Source of the DNA: Gemmiger formicilis
GTDB taxonomy: Bacteria; Bacillota; Clostridia; Oscillospirales; Ruminococcaceae
Length of the DNA: 64,000 bases
Assembly (NCBI RefSeq): GCF_016900095.1
Contig: NZ_JACJJP010000002.1
Coordinates: 124,001-188,000, forward strand
Direction: 5' to 3'
Each line of letters begins with the position of its first letter. Within the stretch, counting starts at the first letter, position 1. This document shows, one piece after another, positions 36,197-59,755 of this stretch. Both the position numbers and the translations under genes were made by a program. Under the pieces are notes generated by a model, which did not search any database, was not told the origin of the DNA, and was given only the letters and a program-made list of their open reading frames with translations.

Positions 36197-36340
36197 GTCG
36201 CTTTTTGCCGCCAAAAAGCGACGGAAAAACCGCCACCGTTTCGAGGCGGTGGACGCCGACCAGGGTTTTCAACCCTGGACCCGTATGCGGCCACCCCTCC
36301 GGGACGGCCTACTCAGGTCCTGGGGGACCTGAGCAAGGAA
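36197..36340 (-). repeat. Four-hairpin dispersed repeat, copy 1 (reverse orientation)
   Basis: Read on the minus strand, it contains four successive hairpins: H1 CTCAGGTCC/GGACCTGAG (36312-36333), H2 CCAGGGTT/AACCCTGG (36260-36278), H3 CCACCG/CGGTGG (36234-36252) and H4 GTCGCTTTTTG/CAAAAAGCGAC (36197-36222). Single-stranded landmarks TAGGCCGTC and GGTGGCCGCA lie between H1 and H2. It is copy 1 of five in this window. The gap 36119-36648 holds two copies, facing each other, plus two terminators, and no gene. Confidence 0.85.
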
Positions 36341-36404
36341 GAAAATTAAAAACCATAAGGGAAAGTCTCTGCTAAGCAGCCGTTACCGGGCAATGGTATT
36401 AAAA

Positions 36405-36549
36405 CCATTCCTTGTTCACCGGCCCCCAGGCCGGTGAATAGGCCGTCGGTAGGTGGCCGCACACCCCGGGTCCAGGGCCGCAGCCCTGGTCGGCGTCCAC
36501 CGCGTCGAAACGGTGGGACTTTTCGCTTCCTTTTGGTCACAAAAGGAAG
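36405..36549 (+). repeat. Four-hairpin dispersed repeat, copy 2
   Basis: H1 TTCACCGGCC/GGCCGGTGAA (36415-36438), H2 CCAGGG/CCCTGG (36472-36489), H3 GTCCACCG/CGGTGGGAC with one bulged G (36495-36519), H4 CTTCCTTTT/AAAAGGAAG (36526-36549). Between H1 and H2 lie TAGGCCGTC and GGTGGCCGCA. The flank CCATTCCTTG precedes H1. Confidence 0.88.
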
Positions 36550-36596
36550 GACACTCCCGCAGACTGCCGTCCGCCAAAAACCAGGCAACTTAAAAT

Positions 36597-36632
36597 AAAA
36601 GAGGCTCCCTCCACCGAGGAAGCCTCTTTTTA
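36597..36632. terminator. Terminator of SCIFF maturase gene
   Basis: GAGGCTCCCT and AGGAAGCCTC pair (36601-36626) with A and T runs on both sides. On the minus strand it lies 17-50 bases after the maturase stop. Confidence 0.85.
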
Positions 36633-36648
36633 TACTATCAGGAAACAA

Positions 36649-38100
36649 TCAGTCCGCGCAGCTGCTGCACCCGTCGCAGTCGTCCTGGGCCGGGGCGGGG
36701 GCGGCGTTCTTGGCCAGCTCGGGGTCCAGGTTCTCCGCCACCTTGATCATCAAAGCGCACTCGATGCGCTTGCGGAAGACCTGGCAGCCGTACTCATACA
36801 CGCCGTGGATGTCCCCGGTGGCGTGCAGGGCGTTGGCGGCACAGCCGCCGGCGCAGTACAGCCGGGCCCAGCAATCCTTGCAGTCGGGGCGGGCGTAGAC
36901 GTTGCACATCTTGAACTCGTCCCGCAGGGCGGTGTTGGTCACCCCGTTCCAGATGTCGCCCAGCTTGTACGCCGGGTCGCCCACAAACTGGTGGCAGGGA
37001 TACAGGTCGCCCCAGGGGGTCACGGCCATGTACTCGGTGCCGGAACCGCAGCCCGAAATCCGCTTGTAGATGCAGGGGCCGTGCTCCAGGTCCAGAATGT
37101 AATGATAGAAGGTGATGGGCTTGCCCGCCTTTTCCCGGCGGAGCATGTCCTTGGCCAGCAGCTCGTACTGGTCAAACAGCACCGGCAGATCGGCCTCGGT
37201 CAGGGCCTCCGGGTCGCCGGGCTTGGCCACCACCGGTTCCATGGACAGCTCGGAGAAGCCCAGGTCGTCCGCCATGTGGAACAGATCGTTGGTGAAATCG
37301 GTGTTGTAGTGGGTGAAGGTGCCCCGCATGTAGTAGCCCTTGCCGCCCCGGGCCTTGACCAGGCGCTGGAACTTGGGCACGATGCGGTCATAGCTGCCGT
37401 TGCCCGCCAGGTCCTTGCGGAACCGGTCGTTGACCTCCTTGCGGCCGTCCAGGGACAAAACCACGTTGTAGCATTCCTTGTTGGCCCACTCGATGACCTC
37501 GTCGGTGATGCCGATGCCGTTGGTGGTCAGGGTAAAGCGGAAATTCTTGCCCTTTTCCTTCTCGATGCTGCGGGCGTAGGCCACCAGCTGCTTGCACACC
37601 TCGAAGTTCATCAGCGGTTCGCCGCCGAAGAAGTCCACTTCCAGGTTGTGGCGGGTGCCGGAATGCTCGATGAGGAAATCCAGCGCCCGCTTGCCGGTCT
37701 CGAAGCTCATCAGGCCCGCCTCGCCGTGGAACTTGCCCTGGGCCGCAAAGCAGTATTCGCAGTTCAGGTTGCAGGTGTGGGCCACATGCAGGCACAGCGC
37801 CTTCACCACCGTGGACCGGTTCTTGAAGTCGAAGGCGTGGTCGGCGTAGATGTCCGGGGCAAACAACTGCCCGGCGGCGGTGAGCTCGTCGATGTCCGCA
37901 AAGCAGTCCTCGATGTCCGCCCGGGTCACTTCCGGGTGGTCGGCGTACTTGGCGGCCAGCTGGTCGATGGCTGCCTCCCGGGCCACCCCGGCGTCCACAA
38001 GGGCGATGGCGTCATAGGCCACGTCGTCCACCGCGTGCACGCTGCCGCTGTACACGTCCACCACGATGTTGTAGCCGTTCAATTTGTACTGATGGATCAT
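36649..38100 (-). CDS. scfB: SCIFF peptide radical SAM maturase
   Basis: This 483-residue radical SAM/SPASM enzyme forms thioether crosslinks between Cys and Thr in the SCIFF peptide. The radical SAM cluster motif CNLNCEYC lies at 110-117 and the SAM-binding GGEP motif is in EVDFFGGEPLMNFEV. The C-terminal SPASM region holds the auxiliary-cluster cysteines: GCGSGTEYMAVTPWGDLYPC, then CNVYARPDCKDCWARLYCAG with GGCAANALHA. An N-terminal peptide-recognition (RRE-like) region precedes, near residues 1-85. The tail DDCDGCSSCAD adds four cysteines. The target peptide gene lies directly upstream with a shared promoter. The SCIFF system is near-universal in Clostridia, but its biological role is still unsettled. 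Confidence 0.95.
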   Translation of the reverse strand: MIHQYKLNGYNIVVDVYSGSVHAVDDVAYDAIALVDAGVAREAAIDQLAAKYADHPEVTRADIEDCFADIDELTAAGQLFAPDIYADHAFDFKNRSTVVKALCLHVAHTCNLNCEYCFAAQGKFHGEAGLMSFETGKRALDFLIEHSGTRHNLEVDFFGGEPLMNFEVCKQLVAYARSIEKEKGKNFRFTLTTNGIGITDEVIEWANKECYNVVLSLDGRKEVNDRFRKDLAGNGSYDRIVPKFQRLVKARGGKGYYMRGTFTHYNTDFTNDLFHMADDLGFSELSMEPVVAKPGDPEALTEADLPVLFDQYELLAKDMLRREKAGKPITFYHYILDLEHGPCIYKRISGCGSGTEYMAVTPWGDLYPCHQFVGDPAYKLGDIWNGVTNTALRDEFKMCNVYARPDCKDCWARLYCAGGCAANALHATGDIHGVYEYGCQVFRKRIECALMIKVAENLDPELAKNAAPAPAQDDCDGCSSCAD

Positions 38101-38211
38101 AGAAACCCCTTACTTTTTCAAAAACGCAAAAAAGGCGTATTCACAACAAAATGCCGGAACAACCCCGCGCAAAAGCAGGGGGATGTCCCGGCAGACAAGC
38201 CAGAAAAAAGA

Positions 38212-38352
38212 TTACTTCTTTTCGCAGGGCTGGTTGGCAATGCCGCAGCTGGTCTTGCAGGCGCTCTGGCAGGAAGTCTGGCATTCGCCGCAACCGCCGT
38301 TCTGCAGGCTCTTGGCCATGTCACGGGTGTTCAGAGTCTGGATGTGCTTCAT
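38212..38352 (-). CDS. scfA: SCIFF ribosomal peptide precursor (six cysteines)
   Basis: This 46-residue peptide has the family core GGCGECQTSCQSACKTSC and six cysteines (21, 24, 28, 32, 36, 43), preceded by the leader MKHIQTLNTRDMAKSLQNGG. Residues T27, S31 and T34 in the core are candidate thioether partners. The start ATG 38352 follows AAGGGGTG. The maturase gene begins 111 bases downstream. A strong promoter lies about 35 bases upstream. Easily missed because it is so short. Confidence 0.95.
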   Translation of the reverse strand: MKHIQTLNTRDMAKSLQNGGCGECQTSCQSACKTSCGIANQPCEKK

Positions 38353-38386
38353 AAAACAGTCACCCCTTTTATATTGGTATGGTTTT

Positions 38387-38415
38387 ATTGTACACGGGGC
38401 AGGCAGGGTTGTCAA
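38387..38415 (-). promoter_or_regulatory. Promoter of SCIFF operon
   Basis: Minus strand TTGACA (38410-38415), exactly 17 bases, TACAAT (38387-38392). The -35 overlaps the stop codon of the upstream gene. Confidence 0.88.
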
Positions 38416-39860
38416 GGCTTGGAATCCCCGCACACCGCCAGCTTGCCCGGCGTTTTTGCCACCGTGTGGTGCAGGGCGGTGCCGGCCGCTTCCAGGGCAG
38501 CGCAGGCCGCCGCAAAGGCCGGGGTCACCCGCTCCCCGGGGGTGATCAGGGGCACCCCCGGCGGGTAGGCCCAGACGTACTCGGCACAGGCGGTGCCCAC
38601 CGCTTCGGCCAGGGACAGTTCCCGGCGGGGCAGCCGCACCGCCCGGGCGATGGTGCACACCGCCTCCCCCGGCGGGCAGAGGGTGGCCCTGGGTGCCGCC
38701 ACGGCGGGACGGGCGTCGGCGTCCAGAGCCAGCAGGGCTTCGGCCAGCCGGTCCAGGGCGTCCTCGGCATCACAGACGCTGGTCATGGCCAGCAGATTGG
38801 TTCCGCAGGCCATCTCGGTTTCAAAGCCGTAGCCCTCCCGCAGCAGGCGGGCCATCTCGGTGCCGGTCAGCCCGGCGGCTGCCCCGTTCACCAGGATTTT
38901 GCCGCTGTCATGGGCAAAAAAGCCGGGATGGTCGGCAAGGCGGTCCGTCCCGTAACAGAGCACCCGCAGGTGCTGCAGCGGCACCACGGCGGCGGAAAAC
39001 CGGTCCAGCCGCTGCCGCCACCCGGCAAAGAGGGCAGGGGCCTCCTGGGCCAGCTGGGCGCAGCAACCGTCCAGGCTGACCATTAAAGGGTAGGAGGGGG
39101 AGCTGGTCTCGAAAACATCCAGCTGGCGCTCCACCTCGTCGGGGTCGATGAGCTCCCCGTTCAGGTGCAAAAGGGCAGTCTGGGTCAGGCTGGGCAGGGT
39201 TTTGTGGGCGCTCTGGATGACCAGGTCCGCCCCGGCGGCCACCGCCCCGCCCTGCCAGCCGTAAGGCTCGGCGGCGGGCAGGTAGTGGGCGCCGTGGGCC
39301 TCGTCCACCACCAGGGGGATGCCCCGGGCGTGGCAGAGGTGGGCCATGGCGGCGATGTCGCTGAGCACCCCCTCGTAGGTAGGGCTGGTGAGCACCAGAC
39401 AGGCGGCGTCGGGGTGGGCGTCCAGGGCTTCGGCCACGGCGGCGGGGGAGACGCTGCCGTACACCCCGAAGGCTTCGTCCACCGGCGGGGTGAGCCAGAC
39501 CGGGCGCAGGTCGCACAATTCGATGGCGTGGTAGATGGATTTGTGGCAGTTGCGGGCGCAGAGAATCTCGCTGCCCCAGGGCGCGGCGGCGCGCACCGCG
39601 GCCAGCAGCCCGCAGGTGCTGCCCCCCACCAGGAACCAGCACCGCCGGGACCCCCACAAAGCGGCGGCCCGGGCCATGGCCTGGGCCAGAATGCCGTCAG
39701 CGTCGTGCAGGTCGTCGGTGCCGGGCACCTCGGTGGTGTCCCAGGCGGCGCAGGCCAGCCCCGGGGCGGGCAGACACCGCCGCTTGTGCCCCGGCATGTG
39801 CAGGGGATACCGGGCGGCGGCGCAGGCTTCCAGCTGCTGCTGCAAAAGAGAACGGGACAT
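38412..39860 (-). CDS. Orn/Lys/Arg decarboxylase-fold PLP enzyme
   Basis: This 482-residue protein belongs to the short Gram-positive group of Orn/Lys/Arg decarboxylases (YaaO/SpeA-like), which lack the N-terminal wing domain. PLP motifs: LHMPGHKRR near the N-terminus, GGSTCGLLAAV, ARNCHKSIYHAIEL, VVDEAHGAHY and the Schiff-base lysine in IQSAHKTLPSLTQTALL. The C-terminal region has PPGVPLITPGE. Relatives decarboxylate arginine or lysine, making agmatine or cadaverine; substrate cannot be settled here. It ends just before the SCIFF promoter and follows sbcC by 15 bases. Confidence 0.88.
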   Translation of the reverse strand: MSRSLLQQQLEACAAARYPLHMPGHKRRCLPAPGLACAAWDTTEVPGTDDLHDADGILAQAMARAAALWGSRRCWFLVGGSTCGLLAAVRAAAPWGSEILCARNCHKSIYHAIELCDLRPVWLTPPVDEAFGVYGSVSPAAVAEALDAHPDAACLVLTSPTYEGVLSDIAAMAHLCHARGIPLVVDEAHGAHYLPAAEPYGWQGGAVAAGADLVIQSAHKTLPSLTQTALLHLNGELIDPDEVERQLDVFETSSPSYPLMVSLDGCCAQLAQEAPALFAGWRQRLDRFSAAVVPLQHLRVLCYGTDRLADHPGFFAHDSGKILVNGAAAGLTGTEMARLLREGYGFETEMACGTNLLAMTSVCDAEDALDRLAEALLALDADARPAVAAPRATLCPPGEAVCTIARAVRLPRRELSLAEAVGTACAEYVWAYPPGVPLITPGERVTPAFAAACAALEAAGTALHHTVAKTPGKLAVCGDSKP

Positions 39861-39874
39861 ACAAAGTCTCCTTT

Positions 39875-42688
39875 TTACTCGGTGAGAATCTCGGCGGTGC
39901 TGCCCCGGCGGGTCTTGTGCACCAAAATCTTCCGGCGCACCCGGTCCTGTAAGGCTTCCACGTGGCTGATGATGCCCACCAGCTTGTCCGACCCCGCCAG
40001 GGCGGTGAGGGTCTCGATGGCTTTTTCCAGGGCCTCGGCGTCCAGGGTACCGAAGCCTTCGTCCACAAACAGGGTGTCCACCTGCACGCCTCCGGCGCTC
40101 TGCTGGATGGTGTCGCTGATGCCGAGAGCCAGGCTCAGGGCGGCCAGAAAGCTCTCCCCGCCCGAAAGGCTGCCCACCGGGCGGGTCTTGCCGGTGTAGG
40201 CGTCGAACACATCCAGGTCCAGGGCGGTCTTGGCGGCAATGCCCCCGTCGCTGCGGCGCAAAAGGCGGTACTGCCCGGCGGTCATGCGGTGGAACCGGCG
40301 GTTGGCCGCCGCCACCACCCCGTCAAAGTAGAAGGCCTGCACGTACTGCTCAAAGGGCAGCTTGGGCTTGCCGGACAGATTGCCGTTGATGGTGCGGGAC
40401 AGGTTATCCAGCATGGCGCTGCGGGTCCGGATGTGTTCGGAATCGGCCAGGGCCTTTTCCAGGGCGGCCAGGGCGTCCCGGTTGGTTTTCAGCCGCAGAT
40501 GGGTGGCCTGCAAGGCCCGGCGCAGTTCGTCCCGGGCGGTCTGGGCGGTCTGCAGGGCCGCTTCGGCGGCCTCGGGAGCCGGGGCGCCCGGGGCGGCGGC
40601 CGCTTCCTTTTCCAGGGCGGCGGCCCGGCCCTGGGCCTCGCTGAGTTTGGCTTCAAATTCGCTGCGCTCCCGGGCGGCCGCCTGCAGGGCTTTGGCCAGG
40701 GCGTCCCGCCGGGCGGCCACTTCCTGCCGCTGGGCGTTCAGGGCGGCGGCGTCGGGGTAGGGCAGGTCTTTGAGCAAGGCTTCCCGCCGGGCTTCGGCCC
40801 CGGCCAGGTCGGCCTGGGCCTTGGCGGCGGCGGTCTGGGCGGTTTGCAGGGCCTGGTTCAGCGCCGGACCCTTGCCCTGCAGGGCGGCGGCCTGTCTGGA
40901 CAGGTCGGCCTTGCGGTCGGCCCGGGCCTTGGCATCCTGCAGGGCGGTGCGCACCTTGGCCAGACCGGCTTGCAGGGCAGCGGCCTGGTCGCTGAGCACC
41001 GCCCGCAGGGCATCGGCGTCCAGCTCGGCCGCCGGGGCGCCGGTGTAGACTTTTCGCCGTTTGCCCAAAAAGGCATCGGCGGATTTGTACAGGTTGTCAC
41101 GCAGCGCCTTGCACCGGGCGGTGGCCTGCCCGGCCTGCACGCTGGCGTCGGTGGCGGTGCGGGCGGCCTGGGCGGCCAGGGTGGCGGCGGCGTCGCAGTC
41201 CGCCTCGGTCACATGGCCGGGTTCCAGGGTGGCCGGCGCCGGGTGATGGGTGGCGCCGCAGACGGGGCAGGGGGCCCCTTCGGTGAGGGTCTGGGCCAGC
41301 AGCCCCGCCCGGGCGGCGTTGAGCTGCTTTTGCAGGGCGGCGCTGCGGGCGGCGGTTTCGTCGGCGGTGCGCTGCTTTTCTAAGTAGGCGGCCTGGCGGT
41401 CGGCCCGGGCGGCTTCCGCCCGCTGCCACACGTTCCAGTCGGTGAGCAGGGCGTCGCAGTCCCGGCGCAGCCCTTCGGCGGTCTGCTCCATGGCCTGGGC
41501 CCGGGCCGCTTCCGCCTCCGGCGCCTCGCAGGCGGCCAGGGCCTTGTCGGTGTCCGCTTTGCGCTGCTCCCAGTCCTGCACGGCCTGCCGGGCCTTGGCC
41601 TCATCGGCCTGGGCTTTGGCCAGGGCTTTTTGGGCAGTGCGGACGGCGGTTTCGGCATCGGTCAGGGCCGCGTACTTGGGTGCCAGCTCCTCCAGGGCGG
41701 CCAGCCGGGCGGCCAGCGTCTCCAGCTCGGGGCGGCGGGCCTCGGTTTTATCCCAGTCCTGCCGCCGGGCAGGGGCGCTCTCCAGCAGGGTCCTGGCGTC
41801 GGTGCGGGCCTGTTGCAGGCGCCCCTGCAGGGCCGCGGCACTGCGGGCGGTCTCGGCCTTGGCGGCGGCCGCGGTCACGGCGGCGTCCCGCTGGACCAGC
41901 TCCGCCTCCCCGGCGGTGCTGGCGGTCTCGTCGGCGGCAATCAGCGCCCGGGCCAGGGCGGGGGCTCCCGCGGCCTTGTAGGGGTCGCGGGCGGCCTGCA
42001 GGTCGGTGAGGGCCGCGCTCTCGGGGGCATCGGGCACCGGCTGCAGCCGCCCCAGCTGGAGCAGCACCGTCTCGGCGGCGGTGTCCGCCCGGTGGGCGGC
42101 CTCGGCGGCCCGGGTGCGGGCGGCGGCCCCCAGCTTCTGGTAGGCGCCGGTGTCAAAGACCTGGCGCAGAATCTCCGCCCGGTCGGCGCTGGAAGCGTTG
42201 AGCAGCCGGGCAAAGTCGTTCTGGGCAATCATGGAGATCTGGGCAAACTGTTTGGCGTCGATGCCCAGCAGCTGGTTCACCGCCGCGGTCACCGCCTTGC
42301 TGCCGGTCACCGGTTCTTCCGGTTCCCGCACCAGGGTGGCCTTGGCGGGAATGGTGGTAAAGCCCTCCCCCCGCTGCTTTTTGCGGGTCTGTTCGGGAGA
42401 GCGGGTCACGGTGTATGTCCGGCCCCGGTGGAAAAAGACCAGCTCCACGGCGGTCTCGTCCTTGGGATCGGCAAAGTCGCTGCGCAGCATGTCCGGGGAG
42501 CGATAAGCCCCGGTGGCCTCGCCGTACAGCGCAAAGGTGATGGCGTCAAACAGGGCGGTCTTGCCCGCGCCGGTGTCGCCGCTGATGAGGAAGAGCCCGC
42601 CCTGGCCGAAACCGGTCAGGTCCAGGGTGCTGCGCCCGGCATAGGGCCCGAAGGCGCACAGGGTCAGCCGCAAGGGTTTCACGGGCAA
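39875..42688 (-). CDS. sbcC: Exonuclease subunit SbcC
   Basis: This 937-residue SMC-like ATPase forms with SbcD a nuclease that opens hairpins and trims blocked DNA ends. Walker A is [16 protein letters not shown] near 34-49, and a basic region follows. Two long Ala/Gln/Arg-rich coiled coils flank the zinc hook [13 protein letters not shown] near 470. At the C-terminus are signature [19 protein letters not shown] and Walker [15 protein letters not shown]. It overlaps sbcD by 10 bases. The coiled-coil DNA gives many long antisense frames that are not genes. Confidence 0.95.
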
Positions 42689-43854
42689 TCCACCTCCTCC
42701 TTCATCTCGGCCAGGACGGTCTGCTCCTCCTCGGTCAGGTCACGGCCGTGCATCTGGGCAAAAAAGGCGGAAAACAGTTCGTCAAAGCTCTTCTTCCGCA
42801 CCGCCTCGGCGGTTTCGGTCTGCCAGTCGGGGCCGGTGCCCCGGGGGGCGTAGTCCAGCCGCATGGCGTTGGGGTAGGCCGCCCGCAGCACCGCCATGGC
42901 GTCGGGCTGGGGGGTGTCGTCGGTGAGGGTGGCCCAGATGTAATCCTCCGCCTCGGTGACCCGGGCGGGGTCGGTGAGTTCGGCCAGCGGCCCGGTCAGG
43001 TGCCGCATGGCCCGGCGGGGATGCAGGGGCAAAAGTTCGGTGTACGCCCCGGCGGGGGTCAGGATCAGCAGCACGGCGCTCTTCTGGGCCCCGGCCTCGT
43101 CCAGGCTGTAACACAAGGGCGCCCCGGCATACCGGATGTGGGGCGCCCCGGCGGTCTGGGGGCGGTGGATGTGGCCCAGGGCCACATAATCGAAACCCCC
43201 GTTTTCCGAAAAGCGGGCGGCGTTCACCGCGTCCACCGTGCCGATGTTCACACCGGCCCCGGCGTTCACAAGATCGGGGGCAATGCTCTCGCTGCCCGCG
43301 CACTGGGGCAGCGCCCCGCCGCCCAGCACCGTCTGGTGGGTCACCAGAATCCGGGCCACGCCGTCCTGCCGGGGCGGCAGGGTGGAAAGGGCCGCCGCCA
43401 CCGCGGTGTCCTGGTCGGTGATGGGGGTGTCGGGCAGAAAATGCCGCACGGTGGCCGGGCGCACAAAGGGCAGAAGACACACTTCCACCGGTAGATCCCC
43501 CTCCAACCGGGCCACCCGGATTTCCCCGGTGAACCGCCCCGCAATATGCACCCCCTGCCGGGCCAGCAGGGCGGCGGCGTAGTCCAGGCGGTCGGCGCTG
43601 TCGTGGTTGCCCGCCACCGCCAGCACCCGGATGTGCCGGCCGGTGAGCCGGGTCAGGAACCAGTCCAGCAGGGTCACGGCGGCGGCAGGGGGCACCGGGG
43701 CGTCGTAGATGTCCCCGGCCAGAATGACCCCCTGCACCCCGTGTTCCTCACACAAAGCCAGGACCTGGTCCAGAATGAACCGCTGGTCCTCCAGAAAATC
43801 AAACCCGTTCACCCGCTTGCCCAGGTGCAGGTCCCCCAGATGCAGCAGTTTCAT
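42679..43854 (-). CDS. sbcD: Exonuclease subunit SbcD
   Basis: This 391-residue Mre11-type metallophosphoesterase has the motifs [10 protein letters not shown] at 4-13, [31 protein letters not shown] and [10 protein letters not shown]. It provides the nuclease active site of SbcCD. The frame extends to 43980, but ATG 43854 gives [13 protein letters not shown], the usual start, and overlaps the GNAT gene by 4 bases. Confidence 0.95.
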
Positions 43855-44351
43855 CGCCACAGTTTCTCCCATGTCTTGATGTCCAGGGTCACCCCGGGCA
43901 GTACCTCCACCGGCTCCACCCCGGCGGGACGGAACCGGCACCGTTTGCAGAAGCCCTCGGCCTTCAGGTCCTTGGCCCACACCTGCAGGAACAGGCGGCT
44001 GCGGCCGTCGCCCTCAGCCAGCTTTTGGGCATAGGCCACCACGCTGCGGCCGATGCCCCGGCCCCGGGCTTTTTCCAGCAGGAACAGCCGGCTGATGCAC
44101 ACCGCCCCCACCGGGCGCAGATCCAGGGCAAAATAGCCCACCGCCTCGCTGCCCAGGTAGATGAGGAAGTAGTTCACCGCCCCGCAGTGGATCTCGTCGT
44201 CGGTCAGGTCCTCGTTCTGCCAGGCCTCGGCCAGCTGGGCCGCAACCTTGGGGGTCAGTTTGGTGTAATGCTGCACAAAGATCTCCCGGGCCAGGTCGCT
44301 GACCTGGCGGATGTAGCGGGCTTTGGTCACTTGTTTGTAGGTGGCGTTCAT
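43851..44351 (-). CDS. GNAT family N-acetyltransferase
   Basis: This 166-residue acetyl-CoA-dependent transferase has the pyrophosphate-binding loop in LLEKARGRGIGRSVVAYAQK (R-G-x-G-I-G), preceded by the strand CISRLFL and followed by RLFLQVWAKDLKAEGFCKR. Substrate unknown. It sits between NusG-domain and sbcD genes, with 4-base overlap to sbcD. Confidence 0.88.
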   Translation of the reverse strand: MNATYKQVTKARYIRQVSDLAREIFVQHYTKLTPKVAAQLAEAWQNEDLTDDEIHCGAVNYFLIYLGSEAVGYFALDLRPVGAVCISRLFLLEKARGRGIGRSVVAYAQKLAEGDGRSRLFLQVWAKDLKAEGFCKRCRFRPAGVEPVEVLPGVTLDIKTWEKLWR

Positions 44352-44368
44352 GGTTGGTCCTTTCTTGT

Positions 44369-45627: not shown

Positions 45628-45661
45628 GGCAAACACCTCCCCATTTTTGGAATTGTACCTT

Positions 45662-50167: not shown

Positions 50168-50279
50168 GCACAAGAATGGCGCCGCTTTTTTGTTTGGTTT
50201 GTCGTACAAGCACAAAGGCAGGGACGTTTTGGTCATGCGCCCGCCGCATAGGGCGAAGCCCCCGCAGCGCCTTCTCCTC

Positions 50280-50374
50280 AAAGCCTTTCCTGTGTAAAGG
50301 GAGCCCCGCAGTGCCTTCTCTCCCCAAAGCCTCCCCTGTGTAAGGGGAGGTGCCGCGCAGCGGCAAAAGGGTTG
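50280..50374 (+). repeat. Short palindromic repeat (CTCCCCT...AGGGGAG type), one full and one degenerate unit
   Basis: The unit at 50326-50374 has GCCTCCCC-TGTGTAA-GGGGAGGT, then GCCGCGCAGCGGC and AAGGGTTG. A degenerate copy precedes it (50280-50310). The 460-base gap between kduI and ilvA otherwise holds only the two promoters and no gene. Confidence 0.75.
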
Positions 50375-50462
50375 TCCATCCGCCGCCCGTTCCCGGACCC
50401 ATTCGCTGTATTTCACAAAAACAACGCTGGATTTTGTACGTCTGCACGCGGTATGCGTACAT

Positions 50463-50507: not shown

Positions 50508-50542
50508 CATGCTCATACGCTCAACGCTTCAAGGACGAAGCA

Positions 50543-50574
50543 GAAAGCGGCCCGGCCGGTCCCGGGCCGCTTTC
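50543..50574 (+). other. GC-rich leader hairpin before ilvA
   Basis: GAAAGCGGCCCGG pairs with CCGGGCCGCTTTC over 13 bp in the ilvA leader. There is no T-run after it, so attenuation is uncertain. Confidence 0.5.
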
Positions 50575-50621
50575 GCGCCCTCTTGGCGCCGGGCCAACAC
50601 CCAAGGAAGGGAAGGACGTCC

Positions 50622-51827: not shown

Positions 51828-51829
51828 AA

Positions 51830-51860
51830 AAGGCTCCCCTGTGCAAGGGGAGGCCTTCCG
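51830..51860 (+). repeat. Short palindromic repeat, partial unit
   Basis: GGCTCCCC-TGTGCAA-GGGGAGGCC directly after the ilvA stop. It may act as the ilvA terminator, but has no T-run. Confidence 0.6.
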
Positions 51861-51877
51861 GTAGCGCTATTTCAATC

Positions 51878-52133
51878 CATTCCTTGCTCAGGTCCCCCAG
51901 GACCTGAGTAGGCCGTCGTAAGGTGGCCGCATCCCAACGGGGCAAGGTTTCTCACCCAACTATTGGCCGCTTTTCGCGGCCGACCCATTTCGGAAACAAC
52001 GCTGCGCGTTGCTTTTTTGCATGGCGCGTAGCGCCATCGGGCGGCACAGCCGCCCGGGCAAAAAACGCCCTGGTCGGCGTCCACCGCGTCGAAACGGTGG
52101 GACTTTTCGCTTCCTTTTGGTCACAAAAGGAAG
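51878..52133 (+). repeat. Four-hairpin dispersed repeat, copy 3 (expanded middle)
   Basis: H1 CTCAGGTCC/GGACCTGAG (51887-51908), H3 GTCCACCG/CGGTGGGAC (52079-52103) and H4 CTTCCTTTT/AAAAGGAAG (52110-52133) are kept, as are TAGGCCGTC and GGTGGCCGCA. In place of H2 lies about 125 bases with further palindromes (GGCCGCTTTTCGCGGCC, ATGGCGCGTAGCGCCAT, GGCGGCACAGCCGCC). It lies between converging genes. Confidence 0.85.
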
Positions 52134-52178
52134 GACTAAACGGCAGGCAGCCGTTACCCAAGAAGTGAGAAACAAACC

Positions 52179-52220
52179 CACCGCCGCTGCGCGGCACCTC
52201 CCCTTACACAGGGGGGGCAT
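52179..52220 (-). repeat. Short palindromic repeat, reverse unit
   Basis: On the minus strand: CCCCTGTGTAAGGGGAGGTG then CCGCGCAGCGGCGG. It lies directly after the DUF815 stop. Confidence 0.65.
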
Positions 52221-52229
52221 TGGGGAAGG

Positions 52230-53453
52230 TTACAGCTGTACCCCGCCGGCCAGCAGTTCCACAAACTGCTTGGCCACCCGGGGACTGCGGCCGCCGGCCC
52301 GCAGCGCGAAGGCTTCGGCCCGCATCATCAGCTGGTCGGAGGGCATCTGCACCCCGCACCGCTGGGCCAGGTCCATGACGATGGTTTCGTACAGCGCCTT
52401 GTCCGGCCGCTGGAAGGTCACCGTCAGCCCGAACCGGGCGGACAGGCTCATCAGCTCCTGGCGGGTATCCCCCGCGTGGATGTCATCCCCCGCCATACGG
52501 TCGGACATGGTCTCCTTGACCAGGTGCCGCCGGTTGGAGGTGGCGTACACCGCCACGTTGCGGCTGCGCCCGCCCACGCTGCCTTCCAGAATGGCTTTCA
52601 GGGCGGCAAAGTTGTCGTCGTTGGAAGAAAAACTCAGATCGTCGATGAAGAGGATGAACTTCAGCGGATTGTCTGCCAGATCATCCATCAGCCCCGGCAT
52701 CTGGTACAGCTGGTGCTTCTTGATTTCCACCAGCCGCAGCCCGTCGCCCCGGAACTCGTTGACCAGCGCCTTCACCGTGCTGGACTTGCCGGTGCCCGCG
52801 TCGCCGTACAAAAGCACGTTGGCTGCCGGCAGACCCGCCAGCAGGGCCTTGGTGTTCTCAATGATCTTCTGCCGCTCCCGCTCATAGCCCGGCAGCTCGC
52901 TGAGCCGCTGGGGGTCCGGGTAGCGCACCGGGGTCAGCTTGCCCTCCTCCAGGGTAAAGACGTGGTACCGGGCAAAGATGCCGTACCCCGCATGGGGCAC
53001 CTGCCGCCGCCGGGCCGCGTATTCCTTGGCAAAGCGCAGCTCCGGCTCCACCTTCCAGGGTAAGGGCATCTGGTTCAGCAGGGCGTCTCCGCCTTCCAGC
53101 GGCGTCAGCAGGTCCGCCAGGGTCAGCGACCCCGCCGCCTGCAAAACGCTCAGGTCCCGGGCCAGATTGCCCTCCGCCACCTCCCCGGCACCCTGGGGCG
53201 TCTGGCTGTGACGGATGCACAGGTTGTCGTCATTGAGCACAATGTCCAGCAACACCCGGCTCCAGTTTTCCCCCCGGGGCAGCAGGGAAGCCTCAAAATC
53301 GGCCACGGCGTCCGCCAGCGGGGCGGCGTTGCCGGAATAGCCCAGCGCCGCCTGCAGCATGGCGGTGAAACGGCGGACGGTTTCGTCCCGCAAAACGCCC
53401 CGCAACACCACCAGCGATCCCAGACGGACCGAAAGGTCACGGATGGTCATCAT
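52230..53453 (-). CDS. DUF815 family AAA+ ATPase
   Basis: This 407-residue protein has an N-terminal helical region of about 180 residues and an AAA+ module: Walker A VLLYGDAGTGKSSTVKALV near 213-231, Walker B FILFIDDLSFSSNDDNFAAL and sensor-1 VAVYATSNRRHLVKE. DUF815 proteins are near-universal in Clostridia and related to AAA+ remodelers, but no substrate is known. ATG 53453 follows GGGGGAG; an upstream ATG at 53489 opens the frame without a ribosome binding site. It stands alone between ilvA and ilvB, facing ilvA. Confidence 0.88.
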   Translation of the reverse strand: MMTIRDLSVRLGSLVVLRGVLRDETVRRFTAMLQAALGYSGNAAPLADAVADFEASLLPRGENWSRVLLDIVLNDDNLCIRHSQTPQGAGEVAEGNLARDLSVLQAAGSLTLADLLTPLEGGDALLNQMPLPWKVEPELRFAKEYAARRRQVPHAGYGIFARYHVFTLEEGKLTPVRYPDPQRLSELPGYERERQKIIENTKALLAGLPAANVLLYGDAGTGKSSTVKALVNEFRGDGLRLVEIKKHQLYQMPGLMDDLADNPLKFILFIDDLSFSSNDDNFAALKAILEGSVGGRSRNVAVYATSNRRHLVKETMSDRMAGDDIHAGDTRQELMSLSARFGLTVTFQRPDKALYETIVMDLAQRCGVQMPSDQLMMRAEAFALRAGGRSPRVAKQFVELLAGGVQL

Positions 53454-53561
53454 ATACAAACTCCCCCTTTGATAACGTCCAACAGACAAAGTCAGGCTGA
53501 CCCCAGTATAAACGTTCGGCCGCCGGTGCGCAAGGGTTTGTGAAAATTACTAAAATCCTGT

Positions 53562-53589
53562 TGACATCGGGAAAAAAATGCGGTACAAT
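53562..53589 (+). promoter_or_regulatory. Promoter of ilvBNCD operon
   Basis: TTGACA (53562-53567), about 16-base spacer, TACAAT (about 53584-53589), directly before the T-box leader. Confidence 0.8.
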
Positions 53590-53595
53590 TCAATA

Positions 53596-53887
53596 TACAC
53601 TTTACCAAGCTAAACAGCTGAACTGCTGTGATGGGAACCAGTAACGCCCCACACCACCAACAGAGAGCTGCCGGCCGGTGCAAGGCAGCGGGCAGGCAGG
53701 GCGCGAAGTCATCCCGGAGCAGGCCCGGTGAATGTCCAGTAACCGGACCCGGAAGCACCCGTTACCGTGCAGGGCTTTGCTTGAAGCCTGATGAGCGGGC
53801 ATGGACGCCATGCCAAGAAGAGTGGTACCGCAGAGAGCCTACACGGCCTTTGTCTCTTGGAAACAGGGGACGAAGGCTGTTTTTTTA
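53596..53887 (+). promoter_or_regulatory. T-box riboswitch, likely tRNA-Val specific
   Basis: The leader contains the T-box sequence AGTGGTACCGCAG (53821-53833), which pairs with the free CCA end of uncharged tRNA. Other elements in order: AGTAA near 53638, AGAGAG, a stem GCTGCC/GGCAGC closing the terminal-loop motif GGTGCAA, then GAAGTCATCC near 53705-53714. By analogy with other leaders the triplet before the A in that block is the specifier, here GTC (53708-53710), i.e. valine. A 15-bp terminator hairpin follows. When uncharged tRNA binds, the antiterminator forms and ilvBNCD is read. Specifier assignment is inferred, not folded. Confidence 0.85.
53844..53887 (+). terminator. T-box terminator hairpin
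   Basis: CGGCCTTTGTCTCTT pairs with AGGGGACGAAGGCTG over 15 positions (some G-U), followed by seven T residues. Confidence 0.88.
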
Positions 53888-53966
53888 CACTCTCCGGGCC
53901 GTTGGCGGCCCACTGGGTAAGAAATACGAAAAGAGGAATCCAGAGCAACGAAAGGAGTTGTCCACC

Positions 53967-55631
53967 ATGCTGTTGACCGGCGCACAGATCTTTGTGGAAG
54001 TCCTGGTGGAACAGGGCGTCGATACCATCTTCGGCTATCCCGGCGGTGCGGTACTGAATCTTTATGACGAATTGTATAAAAGCTCCGATAGAATACAGAA
54101 TATTTTGACCGCCCACGAGCAGGGCGCTGCCCATGCGGCAGATGGTTACGCCCGGGCCACCGGCCGCACCGGCGTGGTGCTGGCCACCAGCGGCCCCGGC
54201 GCCACCAACCTGGTCACCGGCATTGCCACCGCCTATATGGACAGCGTGCCCATGGTGGCCTTCACCGGCAACGTGGCCACCAGCCTCATCGGGCGGGACA
54301 GCTTCCAGGAAGCCTACATCGAAGGCATCACCATGCCCATCACCAAGCACAATTACACGGTGCGCAAGGTGGAAGACCTGGCCGACACCATGCGCAGCGC
54401 CTTCCGCATCGCCCAGAGCGGCCGCAAGGGCCCGGTGCTGGTGGACATTCCCAAGGATGTCACCGCCAACAAGTGCGAATTCACCCCCAAGGCCCCGGAA
54501 CTCATCCGCACCGTCACCCGGGTGGATGAAGCCGAAGCCCGGGAAGCCGCCGAGATGATCAACAAGGCCCAGCGCCCCATCGTCTACTTTGGCGGCGGCG
54601 TGCGCAGCGCGGCGGGCTGCCAGCCCCTGCGGAACCTGCTGAATAAGGCGGGCATGCCCGCCACCCACACCCTGATGGCCGCCGGCGTTCTGGGCTATGG
54701 CGAACCCCACAACCTGGGCATGCTGGGCATGCACGGCAGCTTTGCGGCCAACAAGGCCATTGCGGAAGCCGACCTGGTTCTGGCCGTGGGCACCCGCTTT
54801 TCCGACCGGGTGGCGCTGAACCCCGACACCTTCGCATCCAAGGCGAAAATCATCCAGATCGACATCGACCCCAGCGAGATGGGCAAGAATGTGGATGTGG
54901 ACCTGTGCATCTCCGGGGACGCCGCCTATGTGCTGCAGGCCATTCTGCCCTACGTGGAAAAGACCGAACACAAGATGTGGATGGAACAGATCCGTTCCTG
55001 GCAGAAGGTGGACTACCGCCCCCAGGACAGCGAAACCGAACTGCGGCCCCACCAGCTCATCGATGAGCTCTGCCGCCAGGCCGGGCCGGAAGCCGTCTAT
55101 GTCACCGACGTGGGCCAGCACCAGATGTGGGCGGCCCAGTACCTGCACCACACCAAGAGCCGCGGTTTCCTCACCAGCGGCGGCCTGGGCACCATGGGCT
55201 TCGGCTACGGCGCCGCCATCGGCGCCCAGATGGCCCTGGGCCGGGACCAGCGGGTGATTATGCTCACCGGCGACGGCTCCTTCCACATGAACCTCAACGA
55301 AGCCTGCACCGCCGTGAGCTACCATCTGCCCATCATCACCGTCATCTTCAACAACTCGGTGCTGGGCATGGTCCGGCAGTGGCAGACCAGCTTCTATGAA
55401 GGGCGCTACTCCGCCACCGACCCTCACCGCCACACCGACTTCGTCAAGCTGGCCGAAGGCTTCGGCCTCAAGGGATACCGAGCCACCAACCCGGCGGAAT
55501 TCAAGGAGGCCCTGGCCGACGCCATGAAGCAGGACGGCCCCACCTGGATCGACTGCCGCATCGGCAAGGACGAGCGGGTGCTGCCCATGATCCCGGGCGG
55601 CGGCGACATCAACGACATCATCATGGAATAA
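53967..55631 (+). CDS. ilvB: Acetolactate synthase, large subunit
   Basis: This 554-residue ThDP enzyme makes acetolactate or acetohydroxybutyrate. The catalytic Glu is in LTAHEQGAAHAADGYARATG near 45-64; the FAD/linker region follows (YFGGGVRSAAG); the ThDP-Mg motif is MLTGDGSFHMNLNE...IFNNS near 430-458. ATG 53967 follows AAAGGAG. First gene of ilvBNCD, under T-box control. The extra N-terminal residues of the open frame belong to the leader and are not coding. Confidence 0.96.
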   Translation: MLLTGAQIFVEVLVEQGVDTIFGYPGGAVLNLYDELYKSSDRIQNILTAHEQGAAHAADGYARATGRTGVVLATSGPGATNLVTGIATAYMDSVPMVAFTGNVATSLIGRDSFQEAYIEGITMPITKHNYTVRKVEDLADTMRSAFRIAQSGRKGPVLVDIPKDVTANKCEFTPKAPELIRTVTRVDEAEAREAAEMINKAQRPIVYFGGGVRSAAGCQPLRNLLNKAGMPATHTLMAAGVLGYGEPHNLGMLGMHGSFAANKAIAEADLVLAVGTRFSDRVALNPDTFASKAKIIQIDIDPSEMGKNVDVDLCISGDAAYVLQAILPYVEKTEHKMWMEQIRSWQKVDYRPQDSETELRPHQLIDELCRQAGPEAVYVTDVGQHQMWAAQYLHHTKSRGFLTSGGLGTMGFGYGAAIGAQMALGRDQRVIMLTGDGSFHMNLNEACTAVSYHLPIITVIFNNSVLGMVRQWQTSFYEGRYSATDPHRHTDFVKLAEGFGLKGYRATNPAEFKEALADAMKQDGPTWIDCRIGKDERVLPMIPGGGDINDIIME

Positions 55632-55644
55632 AGGAGGGCTCAGC

Positions 55645-56238
55645 ATGAAAAAGGAAACGCACAGCGGCCCGCCCGCCGATCGCCGCCGGGTGATCAGCCT
55701 GCTGGTGGACAACCAGAACGGCGTTCTGGCCCGGGTATCCAGCCTGTTCTGCCGCCGGGGCTTCAACATCGACAGCCTGACCGTGTCGGCCACCAACGAC
55801 CCCGCCGTCAGCCGCATCACCGTGGCCACCCACGGCAAGGACCAGGAGATCGAACAGCTGATCCTGCAGACCGAACGGCTGGAAGTGGCCCGCCAGGTCT
55901 TTGAGCTCAACGCCGACAACAGCCTGCAGCGGGAACTGCTGCTGCTGAAGGTGGCCTGCACCACCGCCAACCGCGCCGAACTGCGGGAGATCGCTTCCAT
56001 TTACAAATCCAAGATCATTGATCTTTCCCCCGACAGCATGGTGTTTGAACTCACCGGCAAGCCGGAAAAGATCGACGCCTTCCTCAAGATGTTCGAAGGG
56101 TACGAGATCCTGGAACTCTGCCGTACCGGCGTCACCGCCCTGGAACGGGGTGGCAAGCACCAGCACATGCAGAAACCGCCCCAGGAAGTGCGGGCCGCCC
56201 AGCTGCCCCTGCCCGGCACCCACTGCCCGGAGCCCTGA
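55645..56238 (+). CDS. ilvN: Acetolactate synthase, small regulatory subunit
   Basis: This 197-residue subunit has an N-terminal ACT domain (VISLLVDNQNGVLARVSSLF followed by CRRGFNIDSLTV) and a C-terminal regulatory domain (ELALLKVACT-type strand, IIDLSPDSMVFELTGKPEKI, GYEILELCRTGVTALERG). It activates IlvB and confers valine feedback. It is about 25-30 residues longer than usual at the C-terminus (KHQHMQKPPQEVRAAQLPLP). It begins 13 bases after ilvB with AAAGGAGGG. Confidence 0.94.
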   Translation: MKKETHSGPPADRRRVISLLVDNQNGVLARVSSLFCRRGFNIDSLTVSATNDPAVSRITVATHGKDQEIEQLILQTERLEVARQVFELNADNSLQRELLLLKVACTTANRAELREIASIYKSKIIDLSPDSMVFELTGKPEKIDAFLKMFEGYEILELCRTGVTALERGGKHQHMQKPPQEVRAAQLPLPGTHCPEP

Positions 56239-56270
56239 CAAATCTGTTTCCCGGAAAAACCTTATTATAA

Positions 56271-57320
<1,050 letters not shown>

Positions 57321-57378
57321 GCTCCAACCCCAAAAACAACAGCACGGCCGCCCCGGGCGGCAGAGGAGGATGTGCCCC

Positions 57379-59037
57379 ATGCACAGCGATAACGTCAAGA
57401 AGGGCCCCGAGCGCGCCCCCAACCGCAGCCTGTTCTACGCCCTGGGCTATACCCCGGAAGAACTGGAACGCCCGCTCATCGGCGTGGTGTCCGCCTACAG
57501 TGAGATCGTGCCCGGTCACATGAACCTGGACAAGATCGCGGACGCCGTCAAGGCCGGTATCCGTATGGCCGGGGGCACCCCGGTGCTCATGCCTTCCATC
57601 GGCGTGTGCGACGGCATCGCCATGGGCCATATCGGCATGAAGTATTCCCTGGCCAGCCGGGAACTGATCTGCGACAGCGTGGAGACCATGTACATGGCCC
57701 ACCAGCTGGACGGTCTGGTTCTGGTGCCCAACTGCGACAAGATCGTGCCCGGCATGCTTATGGCCGCCGTGCGCATGGATGTGCCCGCGGTGGTCTGCTC
57801 CGGCGGGCCCATGCTGGCCGGCCGCTACGGCGGCGAGGAGGTCAGCCTGTCCAAGATGTTCGAGGCGGTGGGCGCCTACAAGGCCGGGCTCATCAACGAC
57901 GAACAGCTGGAAGACTGCACCTGCAACTGCTGCCCCGGCTGCGGTTCCTGCTCCGGCATGTACACCGCCAACAGCATGAACTGCCTGTGCGAGGCCATCG
58001 GCATCGCCCTGCCCGGCAACGGCACCATCCCGGCGGTCTACGCCAAGCGGCTGCAGCTGGCCAAACGGGCCGGTATGGCGGTTATGGACCTGGTCAACCG
58101 GGGCATCACCGCCCGGCAGATCGTCAACGAGCGGTCCATCCGCAACGCCCTGACCTGCGATATGGCCCTGGGCTGCTCTACCAACACGGTGCTGCATCTG
58201 CTGGCCATCGCCTACGAGGCGGGCGTGCCCATCGACCTGAAACTGTTCAACGAGATCAGCGCCAAGACCCCCAACCTCTGCCATCTGGCCCCGGCGGGCC
58301 CCACCCATATGCCCGATCTGTACGAGGCAGGGGGTATTCCCGCCGTGCAGGCCGAACTGGCCAAGGCGGGGCTGCTGGACCTGGAGGTTCCCACCGTCAC
58401 CGGCAAGACCCTGGGCGAGAACATCGCCGGGGCGAAGATTCTGGACCAGAAGGCCATCCGACCCATCGACAACCCCTATTCGGTCAACGGCGGGCTGCAG
58501 ATCCTGTGGGGCAACATCGCCCCGGACGGCTGCGTGGTCAAGCGCAGCGCCGTGGCCCCCGAAATGCAGCACCACACCGGCCCGGCCCGGGTGTTCGACA
58601 GTGAGGAGACCGCCATCACCGCCATTTATAATGGGGAAATTCACCCCGGGGACGTGGTGGTTATCCGGTACGAAGGCCCCAAGGGCGGCCCCGGTATGCG
58701 GGAGATGCTCAACCCCACCAGTGCCCTGGCCGGTATGAAGCTGGACACCACCGTGGCCCTGATCACTGACGGCCGGTTCTCCGGCGCGTCCCGCGGCGCG
58801 GCCATCGGTCACGTCAGCCCGGAAGCGGCCTCCGGCGGGCCCATCGGCCTCATCAAGGAAGGGGACACCATCGAGATCGACATCCCCAACGCCTCCATCA
58901 CCCTGCATGTCAGCGACGAGGAGCTGGCGGCCCGCAAAGCGGCCTACCAGGCCCCCGAACCCAACGTCAAGAGCGGCTGGCTGGCCCGGTACGCCCGCAT
59001 GGTCACCTCTGCCAACCTGGGCGCGGTGCTGCGCTGA
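57379..59037 (+). CDS. ilvD: Dihydroxy-acid dehydratase
   Basis: This 552-residue Fe-S dehydratase has the cluster cysteines in [13 protein letters not shown] and [20 protein letters not shown], the Mg-binding Lys region, and C-terminal [20 protein letters not shown]. It forms branched 2-oxoacids. An ATG at 57370 directly abuts GAGGAGG and is too close; ATG 57379, 9 bases from it, was chosen. Last gene of the operon; no aminotransferase ilvE follows. Confidence 0.96.
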
Positions 59038-59122
59038 TTTTACCCTTTTCACAGCCAAAGAAAAGATCCTGCCTGTTTGGGCCGCGCCGCAAGGCGCGGC
59101 CCTTTTTGCGGTGCGGCGCCCC

Positions 59123-59173
59123 AGGGCTCCCCTGTGTAAGGGGAGCTGGCGCCGAAGGCGACTGAGGGGTTGT
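59123..59173 (+). repeat. Short palindromic repeat, GGCTCCCC type
   Basis: GGCTCCCC-TGTGTAA-GGGGAGCT, then GGCGCCGAAGGCGACTGAGG and GGTTG. It is first of six repeat units in the 880-base gap between ilvD and the MFS gene, which contains no gene. Confidence 0.75.
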
Positions 59174-59264
59174 TTTGCCGCCCGGCTGCCGGGGAGGATC
59201 GGCTGGCAGCCTTCCTTTTTGGCAAACGGTCGGTTTCCTGACAAACGGTATCTGCCGCGGAGGC

Positions 59265-59405
59265 TTTCCTTTTCGTGCCCGAAAAGGAAACGAAAAGGGC
59301 CCGCCGTTCCGATGCGGCGGCCGCCGGCTGGGGCTGCGGCCCCAGACCCCGAGATGCGGCCACCTTGCGACGGCCTACTCAGGTCCTGGGGGACCTGAGC
59401 AAGGA
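59265..59405 (-). repeat. Four-hairpin dispersed repeat, copy 4 (reverse orientation)
   Basis: On the minus strand: H1 CTCAGGTCC/GGACCTGAG (59378-59399), H2 CTGGGG/CCCCAG (59328-59345), H3 GGCCGCCG/CGGCGGGCC with the same bulged G (59298-59322), H4 TTTCCTTTTCG/CGAAAAGGAAA (59265-59290). H2, H3 and H4 differ from copies 2, 3 and 5 by paired changes that keep the stems. Confidence 0.85.
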
Positions 59406-59427
59406 ATGGATTTGAATGGTACTTCCG

Positions 59428-59479
59428 AAAAGCCTCCCCTGTGCAAGGGGAGGTGCCGCACAGCGGCGGAGGGGTTGTA
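59428..59479 (+). repeat. Short palindromic repeat, GCCTCCCC type
   Basis: AAAGCCTCCCC-TGTGCAA-GGGGAGGT, then GCCGCACAGCGGCGGAGG and GGTTG. Confidence 0.75.
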
Positions 59480-59522
59480 AACCATGCCTGATTTCCCGTT
59501 ACCGGGCAATACTGTCAAGTCT

Positions 59523-59575
59523 CCAACCCCTCAGTCGGCCTTCCGGCCGCCAGCTCCCCTTGCACAGGGGAGCCT
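59523..59575 (-). repeat. Short palindromic repeat, GGCTCCCC type (reverse)
   Basis: On the minus strand: GGCTCCCC-TGTGCAA-GGGGAGCT, then GGCGGCCGGAAGGCCGACTG and AGGGGTTGG. Confidence 0.75.
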
Positions 59576-59606
59576 TCAGCAGCTGCTATTGGGAAATGGG
59601 TTTTAA

Positions 59607-59755
59607 TCCTTTTCCTTGTTCACCGGGCCCCAGGCCGGTGAATAGGCCGTCCCGGCAGGGGTGGCCGCATATGGGTCCAGGGTTGAAAACCCTGGTCGGC
59701 GTCCACCGCGTCGAAACGGTGGGACTTTTCGCTTCCTTTTGGTCACAAAAGGAAG
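59607..59755 (+). repeat. Four-hairpin dispersed repeat, copy 5
   Basis: H1 TTCACCGG/CCGGTGAA (59619-59642), H2 CCAGGGTT/AACCCTGG (59677-59695), H3 GTCCACCG/CGGTGGGAC (59701-59725), H4 CTTCCTTTT/AAAAGGAAG (59732-59755). TAGGCCGTC and GGTGGCCGCA are present. Confidence 0.88.

Follow-up and report, generated by a model that had tools for sequence, protein, structure and literature searches.

Results

The repeat unit ends in a putative triple-helix pseudoknot

What kind of element is the hairpin-rich repeat that recurs between genes in a 64,000-nucleotide stretch of Gemmiger formicilis DNA (contig NZ_JACJJP010000002.1; hereafter the window), and is it selected for a structure? A preliminary description made from the letters of the window had reported five copies, and all five are present in the sequence at the places and on the strands given. 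We put at roughly even the chance that the repeat is an extragenic, non-coding, non-autonomous element of the BIME kind in which selection acts on how the + strand folds as a single strand. That strand is predicted to fold as a row of hairpins, H1, H1b, H2 and H3, ending in an H-type pseudoknot: the 3–5 nucleotides (nt) after H3 would pair with the loop of a further hairpin, H4, to give helix S1, and a T-rich segment, L1, would occupy the H4 major groove as a third strand, making U/T.A-U/T and C+.G-C triples.

The unit is about 145 nt long and is illustrated by the + strand copy at 36405..36550, in which H1 (36415..36438, loop CCCA), H1b (36441..36458), H2 (36472..36489), H3 (36495..36519, TCGAAA in the loop) and H4 (36526..36549, the S2 helix) follow one another on that strand. 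The order H1, TAGGCCGTC, GGTGGCCGCA, H2, H3, H4 and the stems quoted in the preliminary description match the copies, but its count of four hairpins becomes five because the two presumed linkers, TAGGCCGTC...GGTGGCCGCA, can pair as well and constitute H1b. This hairpin reads GGCCGTC-GNNA-GGTGGCC, with one G.T and one T.G pair and a loop that is mostly GNNA. The H1 stem occurs as the alleles CTCAGGTCC, CTCAGGCCC, TTCACCGGCC, TTCACCGGGC and CTCACCGGC around a constant CCCA loop, which is inverted to TGGG in one copy. The copy at 36405 has an H1 of type B (TTCACCGGCC) and an H4 of type T1; its S1 tail, GAC, is the last 3 nt of the H3 segment (36517-36519), L1 occupies 36520..36525 with the predicted third strand TTTTC at 36520-36524, and H4, CTTCCTTTTG-GTCA-CAAAAGGAAG, presents the loop bases GTC (36536-36538) that are predicted to pair with the tail. 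The T1 type knot of the window reads GAC-TTTTC-...-CTTTTG-GTCA-CAAAAG.

We collected 209 unique units, of which 195 could be parsed and 14 could not. The bases after H3 were complementary to the H4 loop in several versions (GAC:GTC, AAC:GTT, CAC:GTG, CGC:GCG and GCC:GGC), and S1 paired in register in 168 of the 195 parsed units. Among the distinct tail/loop combinations, 6/8 were paired compared with 1.13 after shuffling (p 1.2e-4; this and the other shuffle p-values ignore phylogeny). In alignment A2, which comprises 31 3' modules picked for diversity from 84 unique ones, with one mis-cut pick removed, the S1 columns were 95.7% paired and had a covariation score of 0.734, as against 0.176 when shuffled and at most 0.078 when slid. 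H3 and H4 together were 99.1% paired and scored 0.536 (0.201 shuffled, at most 0.174 slid), on a structure derived from the same sequences as were scored.

The third strand follows H4 equally closely. The length of the T-run equals that of the H4 A-run in 192/195 units (3-3, 4-4, 5-5, 6-6), and L1 mirrors the 5' arm of H4 over 4–7 pyrimidines in 193/195, including the mixed runs CTTTCTT, CTTTCTC and TTTTCT, which set a mirror apart from a direct repeat. The third-strand match was 115 compared with 48.4 for shuffled sequences, a value reached by 0/100,000 shuffles; the matched length was 6 or 7 in 157 of the 195 units, 5 in 22, 4 in 14 and 0 in 2. A second C precedes the T-run in 77/77 units that have a C-G pair under the top pair of H4, and in 0/118 of the others (ends AC, GC or GG). 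Both rules shift together within one genome: in G021, GAC/T5 goes with GTC and AAC/T6 with GTT. A general search for 8-bp stems accompanied by a third strand of 5 or more gave 38 places in 262,514 bases of the window's own genome (the window, stretches chosen as copy-bearing and one neighbouring stretch), and all 38 belonged to six types, each an allele of the repeat family. At the level of sequence, then, the crossing S1 and S2 pairs with their covariation, and a third strand that tracks S2, form the pattern that marks an H-type pseudoknot containing a pyrimidine triple helix.

The four window copies that were folded as RNA gave z scores of -4.7 to -6.3, and 0/200 shuffles folded equally well. 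The compensatory stem changes that had been read from the five window copies are, in those copies alone, discrete alleles reshuffled among them; it is in the wider alignment that the stems covary. Loops and linkers stay constant while stems vary, as had been proposed, and this was seen in the clade alignment (A1; 60 of 91 units from the window's clade, which were taken by a regular expression requiring the core to be intact and the H4 3' arm to be one of a few).

Stem mismatches suggest a fold of one strand

Stem mismatches from a strand-symmetric search were predominantly G.T rather than A.C (250:10 cells, 34:8 distinct contexts), an imbalance suggesting that it is the + strand that folds. 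The earlier suggestion of selection on single-strand structure is supported by S1, the covariation of H3 and H4, the third-strand rule and this excess of G.T. The knot may form in cells and would act in a single-stranded intermediate, either RNA or lagging-strand DNA; we slightly favour RNA, because G.U-type pairs recur in H1b.

Doublets combine units with different hairpin alleles

Many units occur as inverted pairs. In the window's clade, 51/51 doublets were head-to-head, with cores about 65–252 bp apart; one of them (L106) is a window doublet again, in genome G023, and was dropped from scoring. The two members of a doublet shared the H1 type in 0/50 cases, where random pairing of the same members gives about 20.0, the H2 allele in 0/46 (about 14.6 expected), the H4 allele in 0/43 (about 9.7 expected) and the H3 allele in 4/45 (about 22.2 expected); these allele classes were drawn up once the sequences had been read, alleles that fitted no class were left out (4 of the 50 doublets for H2, 5 for H3 and 7 for H4), and doublets of relatives may be orthologous and so not independent. 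The linker was not avoided (same in 40/50, 41.9 expected). Mean identity was 0.72 within doublets and 0.79–0.81 for units taken from different doublets. The rule is not explained by two fixed lineages, because H2 and H4 alleles are found with both A and B units across different doublets.

In other species of the genus, 21/23 placed multi-copy groups were head-to-head. G021, which has other alleles, had the same H4 in 0/10 scored of 15 doublets (4.8 expected, p 0.007), and G045 in 0/5 scored of 7 (p 0.13). Doublets may be built so that either strand has one correctly oriented knot at its 3' side. The members would then need different stems because the first, as reverse complement, would capture an identical second.

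Distribution in the genus Gemmiger

A blastn search with one copy gave 43 matches in the window's own genome (G000), on 9/98 contigs and several of them at contig ends. The pattern TAGGCCGTC-N3-10-GGTGGCCGCA returned 74 stretches, 58 of them from Gemmiger, Faecalibacterium UBA1360 or Oscillospiraceae bins; the remaining 16 were scattered singles in unrelated bacteria and were set aside, unread, as chance. Going by its named relatives, the repeat family belongs to the genus Gemmiger. The covariance model search of related genomes that had been proposed was run with a model of 60 copies (A1) and matched 27 of the 35 genus genomes searched, with 0–72 matches per genome: 72 in G009, 63 in G010, 49 in G021, 43 in G000, and 2 and 0 in the closed genomes G004 and G048. 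Other species in Gemmiger carry sub-families of their own, which contain H1b-, H2-, H3- and H4-like parts; in six of these species, 118 of 187 counted matches were read.

The statement that no named family has this form agrees with Rfam 15, in which no family at gathering score covered units in the window or at loci of ten relatives, where one tRNA was the sole match; a permissive search of 36100-36650 gave only matches far below the cut-offs. One copy used as a query had no match in phage and plasmid records, and no published description of the repeat was found in the literature searched. The preliminary description had seen the repeat itself, and lacked the tail-loop pseudoknot, the third strand, the allele rule of the doublets and the genus-wide distribution.

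Six sites were compared with relatives by eye. At five of them, which bear copies in G000, closed G004 and G048 both lack any copy, and G008 has none at the four that were read. G010 retains a copy or doublet with other alleles at 51877, at 59265/59607 and at 14961/15170 of contig C16, and G009 retains the 59265/59607 doublet and only an H4-like remnant at 51877. At the sixth site (C16 3453-3625), G010 has a doublet, G000 has none and G009 has about 1.1 kb of other sequence instead. The doublet at C16 14961/15170 (14961-15315) has its type A member on the left in G000, with B on the right, and on the right in G010, with C on the left, which suggests an inversion between the arms. Copies would spread and reshuffle within a genome, probably by gene conversion and inversion.

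Units are clustered, with 14 on the 53.8-kb contig C16 of G000. A single mobile island was considered for such clusters and rejected: C16 has ordinary genes (mannonate dehydratase, PFL, GyrB), and in the closed genomes G004 and G048 the gene blocks from its first 20 kb are found at several places.

Gene context

Placement beyond gene 3' ends, as first described, is broadly right, although the 59265/59607 pair also lies directly ahead of an MFS gene. In the window's clade, 48 of 99 groups lacked a called gene on one side and were left unplaced; 5/34 placed doublets and 2/17 placed singles lay between divergent genes. Convergent genes flanked 8/17 placed singles, and 27/167 spacers of at least 100 bp were convergent. 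Singles in tandem spacers of this clade were sense in six cases and antisense in one. In the six other species, the triplex end of singles faced a gene 3' end in 43/50 and the H1 end in 22/50, two of the 50 (L214) being members of one wide doublet. Overlap with called genes is rare, at 7/99 clade groups and 2/90 groups in other species. Gene strands were checked with Pfam for ten flanking genes of other species (eight matched) and ten open reading frames of the window (seven matched).

Matches to the knot module outside the genus

Matches to the knot module extend to other families of the order and to G353, a genome from a different order in the class. For 394 genomes of the order we used a model of the 3' module from which the S1 pairs were left out (R2); it matched 18, other families included and mostly weakly. 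A script read 28 matches, namely 27 of the 30 R2 matches outside the window's own genome and the one in G353, which was found by pattern; two rows in which no tail was read were counted as unpaired, and L268 and L271 were mis-cut and kept as cut. The T-run equalled the A-run in 23/28, and tail-loop pairing of at least 3 bp was found in 15 of 22 distinct combinations compared with 7.8 after shuffling (p 1e-4), with new tail:loop pairs such as CCC:GGG and TGC:GCA. Reading by eye in more species of the genus gave GCGAC:GTCGC, CGGC:GCCG, GCGG:CCGC and GCAG:CTGC; G018 does not fit the rule, and G016 L155, mis-cut by the script, was among those read by eye.

The exact T-type knot pattern occurred in 2/391 genomes of the class, one of them the window's own. 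In viral contigs it occurred in three stretches; in two the tail pairs only through two G.T wobbles, in the third it does not, and so in none is tail pairing fully Watson-Crick. The C-type knot pattern was not found in viral contigs.

Copies in the window and neighbouring repeats

The unit at 36405..36550 is the right member of a head-to-head doublet. Its left partner, on the - strand at 36197..36340, has an H1 of type A (CTCAGGTCC) and an H4 of type T3, and a central spacer (36341..36404) separates the two; the flanking genes, convergent, are an HD-domain gene on one side and a radical-SAM gene on the other (Pfam). The unit at 51877..52134 (+ strand) is a type A single between convergent genes for a PALP enzyme and a DUF815 ATPase (Pfam), with its S1 tail, third strand and H4 at 52101..52133. 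It departs from the uniform order claimed for the copies, the 5' half of its H2 having been replaced by about 130 nt of another repeat (about 51936-52067). In the doublet between IlvD and MFS genes, which are in tandem (Pfam), the left unit (59265..59409, - strand) is of type A with an H4 of type T2 (tail GCCC, loop GGGC), and the right unit (59607..59756, + strand) is of type B with an H4 of type T1. The right unit has its S1 tail GAC at 59723-59725, L1 at 59726-59731 and H4 at 59732-59755, and its H1 contains one G.G mismatch.

Other repeats are found beside the units. The sequence that interrupts the 51877 copy at 51936-52067 belongs to a second multi-hairpin repeat family (ATTGGCCGCT...GGCAAAAAACGCC), which also adjoins the orthologous copy in G010 (contig C73). 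In some relatives H4 is replaced (type T6) by a reverse-complement piece of a repeat similar to this one. Many units also have a further family next to them, GCCTCCCCTGTGCAAGGGGAGG..., to which GGAGGGGTTG is joined in some copies; in the window this family is at 50279-50375, 51828-51853, 59117-59171 and 59424-59478. Tandem repeats of the CACCATGACCATGAG type, His-rich if translated in that frame, occupy 33954-34244. The window also holds a T-box leader (Rfam RF00230; 53619-53853) ahead of an open reading frame for a thiamine-pyrophosphate enzyme. A T-box-like reading of GGTGGCCGCA was dropped; this leader, the only T-box match in the window, lies elsewhere.

Discussion

The hairpins, the covariation of S1, the mirror and length rule, the strand polarity, the head-to-head order and the different alleles within doublets can be read directly from the sequences, and selection for a single-strand fold is the reading that we prefer for them. 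Several observations weigh against it. S1 fails in register in 27/195 units, all with the tail CGG, although 10 of these would pair if shifted by one. Three of the four + strand folds predicted by ViennaRNA join the H1b region to the H3 region, in one fold the 3' arm of H4 pairs with L1 instead of with its 5' arm, and two minus strands folded nearly as well (z -3.9 and -4.2). Many of the 250 G.T cells repeat the same few positions, and G050 is an exception to the excess (3 G.T, 4 A.C). The preliminary description had left open a structured RNA, a mobile hairpin element or a DNA platform; the data indicate the fold of one strand but do not separate RNA from single-stranded DNA, G.T being also the mildest DNA mismatch.

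The doublets and the distant matches add further difficulties. Two multi-copy groups in other species are ++ rather than head-to-head, G007 has the same H4 in 1/4 doublets (1.9 expected) and hence no H4 rule, and the pattern in G021 and G045 may stem from the spread of one ancestral doublet. Most of the 30 R2 matches outside the window's own genome are weak (E from 3.6e-10 to 9e-4 over all 30) and several fit badly: those in G037, G623 and G793 and one of those in G738 have less than 3 bp of tail-loop pairing, and the matches in G452 and G734 that have the loop GCGG fail to pair in the register that the main family uses. Orientation to genes is also inconsistent, singles in tandem spacers of the six other species being sense in 5 cases and antisense in 26. 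No target duplication was seen by eye at the compared sites, whose flanks are full of other repeats, and no mobilising gene was identified in a search limited to Y1_Tnp among transposase families.

Four other explanations can be set against the selected fold. The repeat could be a transcribed regulatory element whose knot lies at the 3' end of a transcript, protecting it from 3' exonucleases or setting a limit to read-through, and doublets would do this for transcripts of either direction. The polarity of the fold, the 8/17 placed clade singles between convergent genes, the sense orientation of 6/7 tandem ones and a doublet design by which each of the two transcripts has a unit in the correct orientation on its 3' side all favour this, but the 26/31 antisense tandem singles of the six other species and the absence of any match from 8/35 genus genomes do not, and we regard it as a possible but less probable account. 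The inconsistency of sense and antisense speaks against a simple role in mRNA 3' untranslated regions, and we do not commit to a 3' role in mRNA chiefly because orientation to genes differs between the window's clade and the six species. About as doubtful is selfish DNA that a transposase would recognise by its single-stranded fold, in the way that RAYT/IS200-type Y1 enzymes recognise REPs. High and patchy copy number, extragenic position, inverted doublets, species-specific sub-families and empty orthologous sites would all fit, set against the lack of visible target duplication and the distribution of Y1_Tnp: copy-bearing G021, G007, G012, G042 and G046 have no match, copy-free G048 has 8, and the Y1_Tnp genes of the window's own genome are on contigs C88, C66 and C15, none of which has copies. 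Copy-rich G000, G005, G009, G010, G045 and G050 have 1–4, in incomplete assemblies. A Y1/RAYT link was not supported: the presence of Y1_Tnp does not track copy number in the genus, and the copy-bearing contigs of the own genome have no Y1_Tnp gene.

It is improbable that the repeat has no function, its stems being kept and its loops flipped by templated quasi-palindrome repair and its doublets differing through loss of long palindromes. One inverted H1 loop (TGGG for CCCA), different alleles in orthologous copies and a doublet that is seemingly inverted between G000 and G010 are what such repair might leave. Templated repair, however, yields inverted or direct copies and not the mirror copy in L1, does not link the tail to the H4 loop, and is strand-symmetric, whereas G.T and A.C stand at 250:10; stems that vary between constant loops and linkers also argue against it. 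Loss of long palindromes could by itself leave different alleles in doublets, which is a further point against our reading, but we would expect it to limit overall identity rather than to exclude matches at each of H1, H2 and H4. That the units are simple intrinsic terminators, with a T-run after H3 or H4, is very improbable despite the T3-T6 after H3. A terminator-length T-run is about 5-8, and the T-run here is 3 nt in 36/195 units and 3 or 4 in 119/195; its length tracks the H4 A-run rather than a terminator optimum, and some sites already have another terminator-like hairpin. The T-run lengths do not support this reading, and we rejected it.

Among known structures, telomerase RNA and the SAM-II and preQ1-II riboswitches are H-type pseudoknots with U.A-U major-groove triples and are single-locus functional RNAs. 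The predicted topology of the Gemmiger unit, with S1 and a U-rich L1 in the groove of S2, resembles theirs, but the unit is an interspersed repeat. The closest known kinds are the intrastrand-triplex repeats and REPIN/BIME. Intrastrand triplex motifs, or PIT elements (Holder et al., 2015, PMC4666352, which also covers work of Hoyne and Maher), share with the Gemmiger repeat many bacterial copies, a strand able to form a third-strand helix and strain-variable numbers; in the sections of that paper available to us, strain-variable copy numbers and instability are reported for another, G/C-rich motif, and the ITxF search rule asks for a stem of 6 or more triplets. The strand order of its class IV (third strand, pyrimidine arm, purine arm, with mirror symmetry) is the order found here. 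Unlike the motifs described in those sections, the triplex here makes up one end of a longer unit of several hairpins in which tail and loop covary, and a term search of the main text for pseudoknot, Gemmiger and Faecalibacterium found none of these words. Like REPIN/BIME, in the part of Bertels and Rainey (2011, PMC3116915) available to us, the units are extragenic, palindromic and non-autonomous and form inverted doublets; REPIN doublets are predicted there to form a hairpin jointly, whereas Gemmiger doublet members avoid matching alleles, are about 145 nt long and had no RAYT link that we could find. GTAG/CGTC-tagged REPs, as far as the accessible text of Di Nocera et al. (2013, PMC3733652) goes, are likewise palindromic, and CGTC is present in H1b; those REPs are 20-40 bp long with the tag at one end, whereas CGTC here is inside a stem of a longer unit.

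We consider it possible, at somewhat below an even chance, that the repeat represents a new class: a triple-helix pseudoknot following a hairpin with a TCGRAA loop, old in the order, amplified as species-specific repeats in one genus, and arranged in doublets of mutually orthogonal folds that give each strand one working 3' knot. Covariation for a three-stranded structure is rarely visible; here the tail, the loop, the third strand and both arms of the duplex change together across many alleles, even within one genome, which opens the triplex hypothesis for extragenic repeats of bacteria to direct tests. As a quantitative sign of selection, either on single-strand folding or against long palindromes, the rule that doublet members differ in H1, H2 and H4 can be sought in other repeat families.

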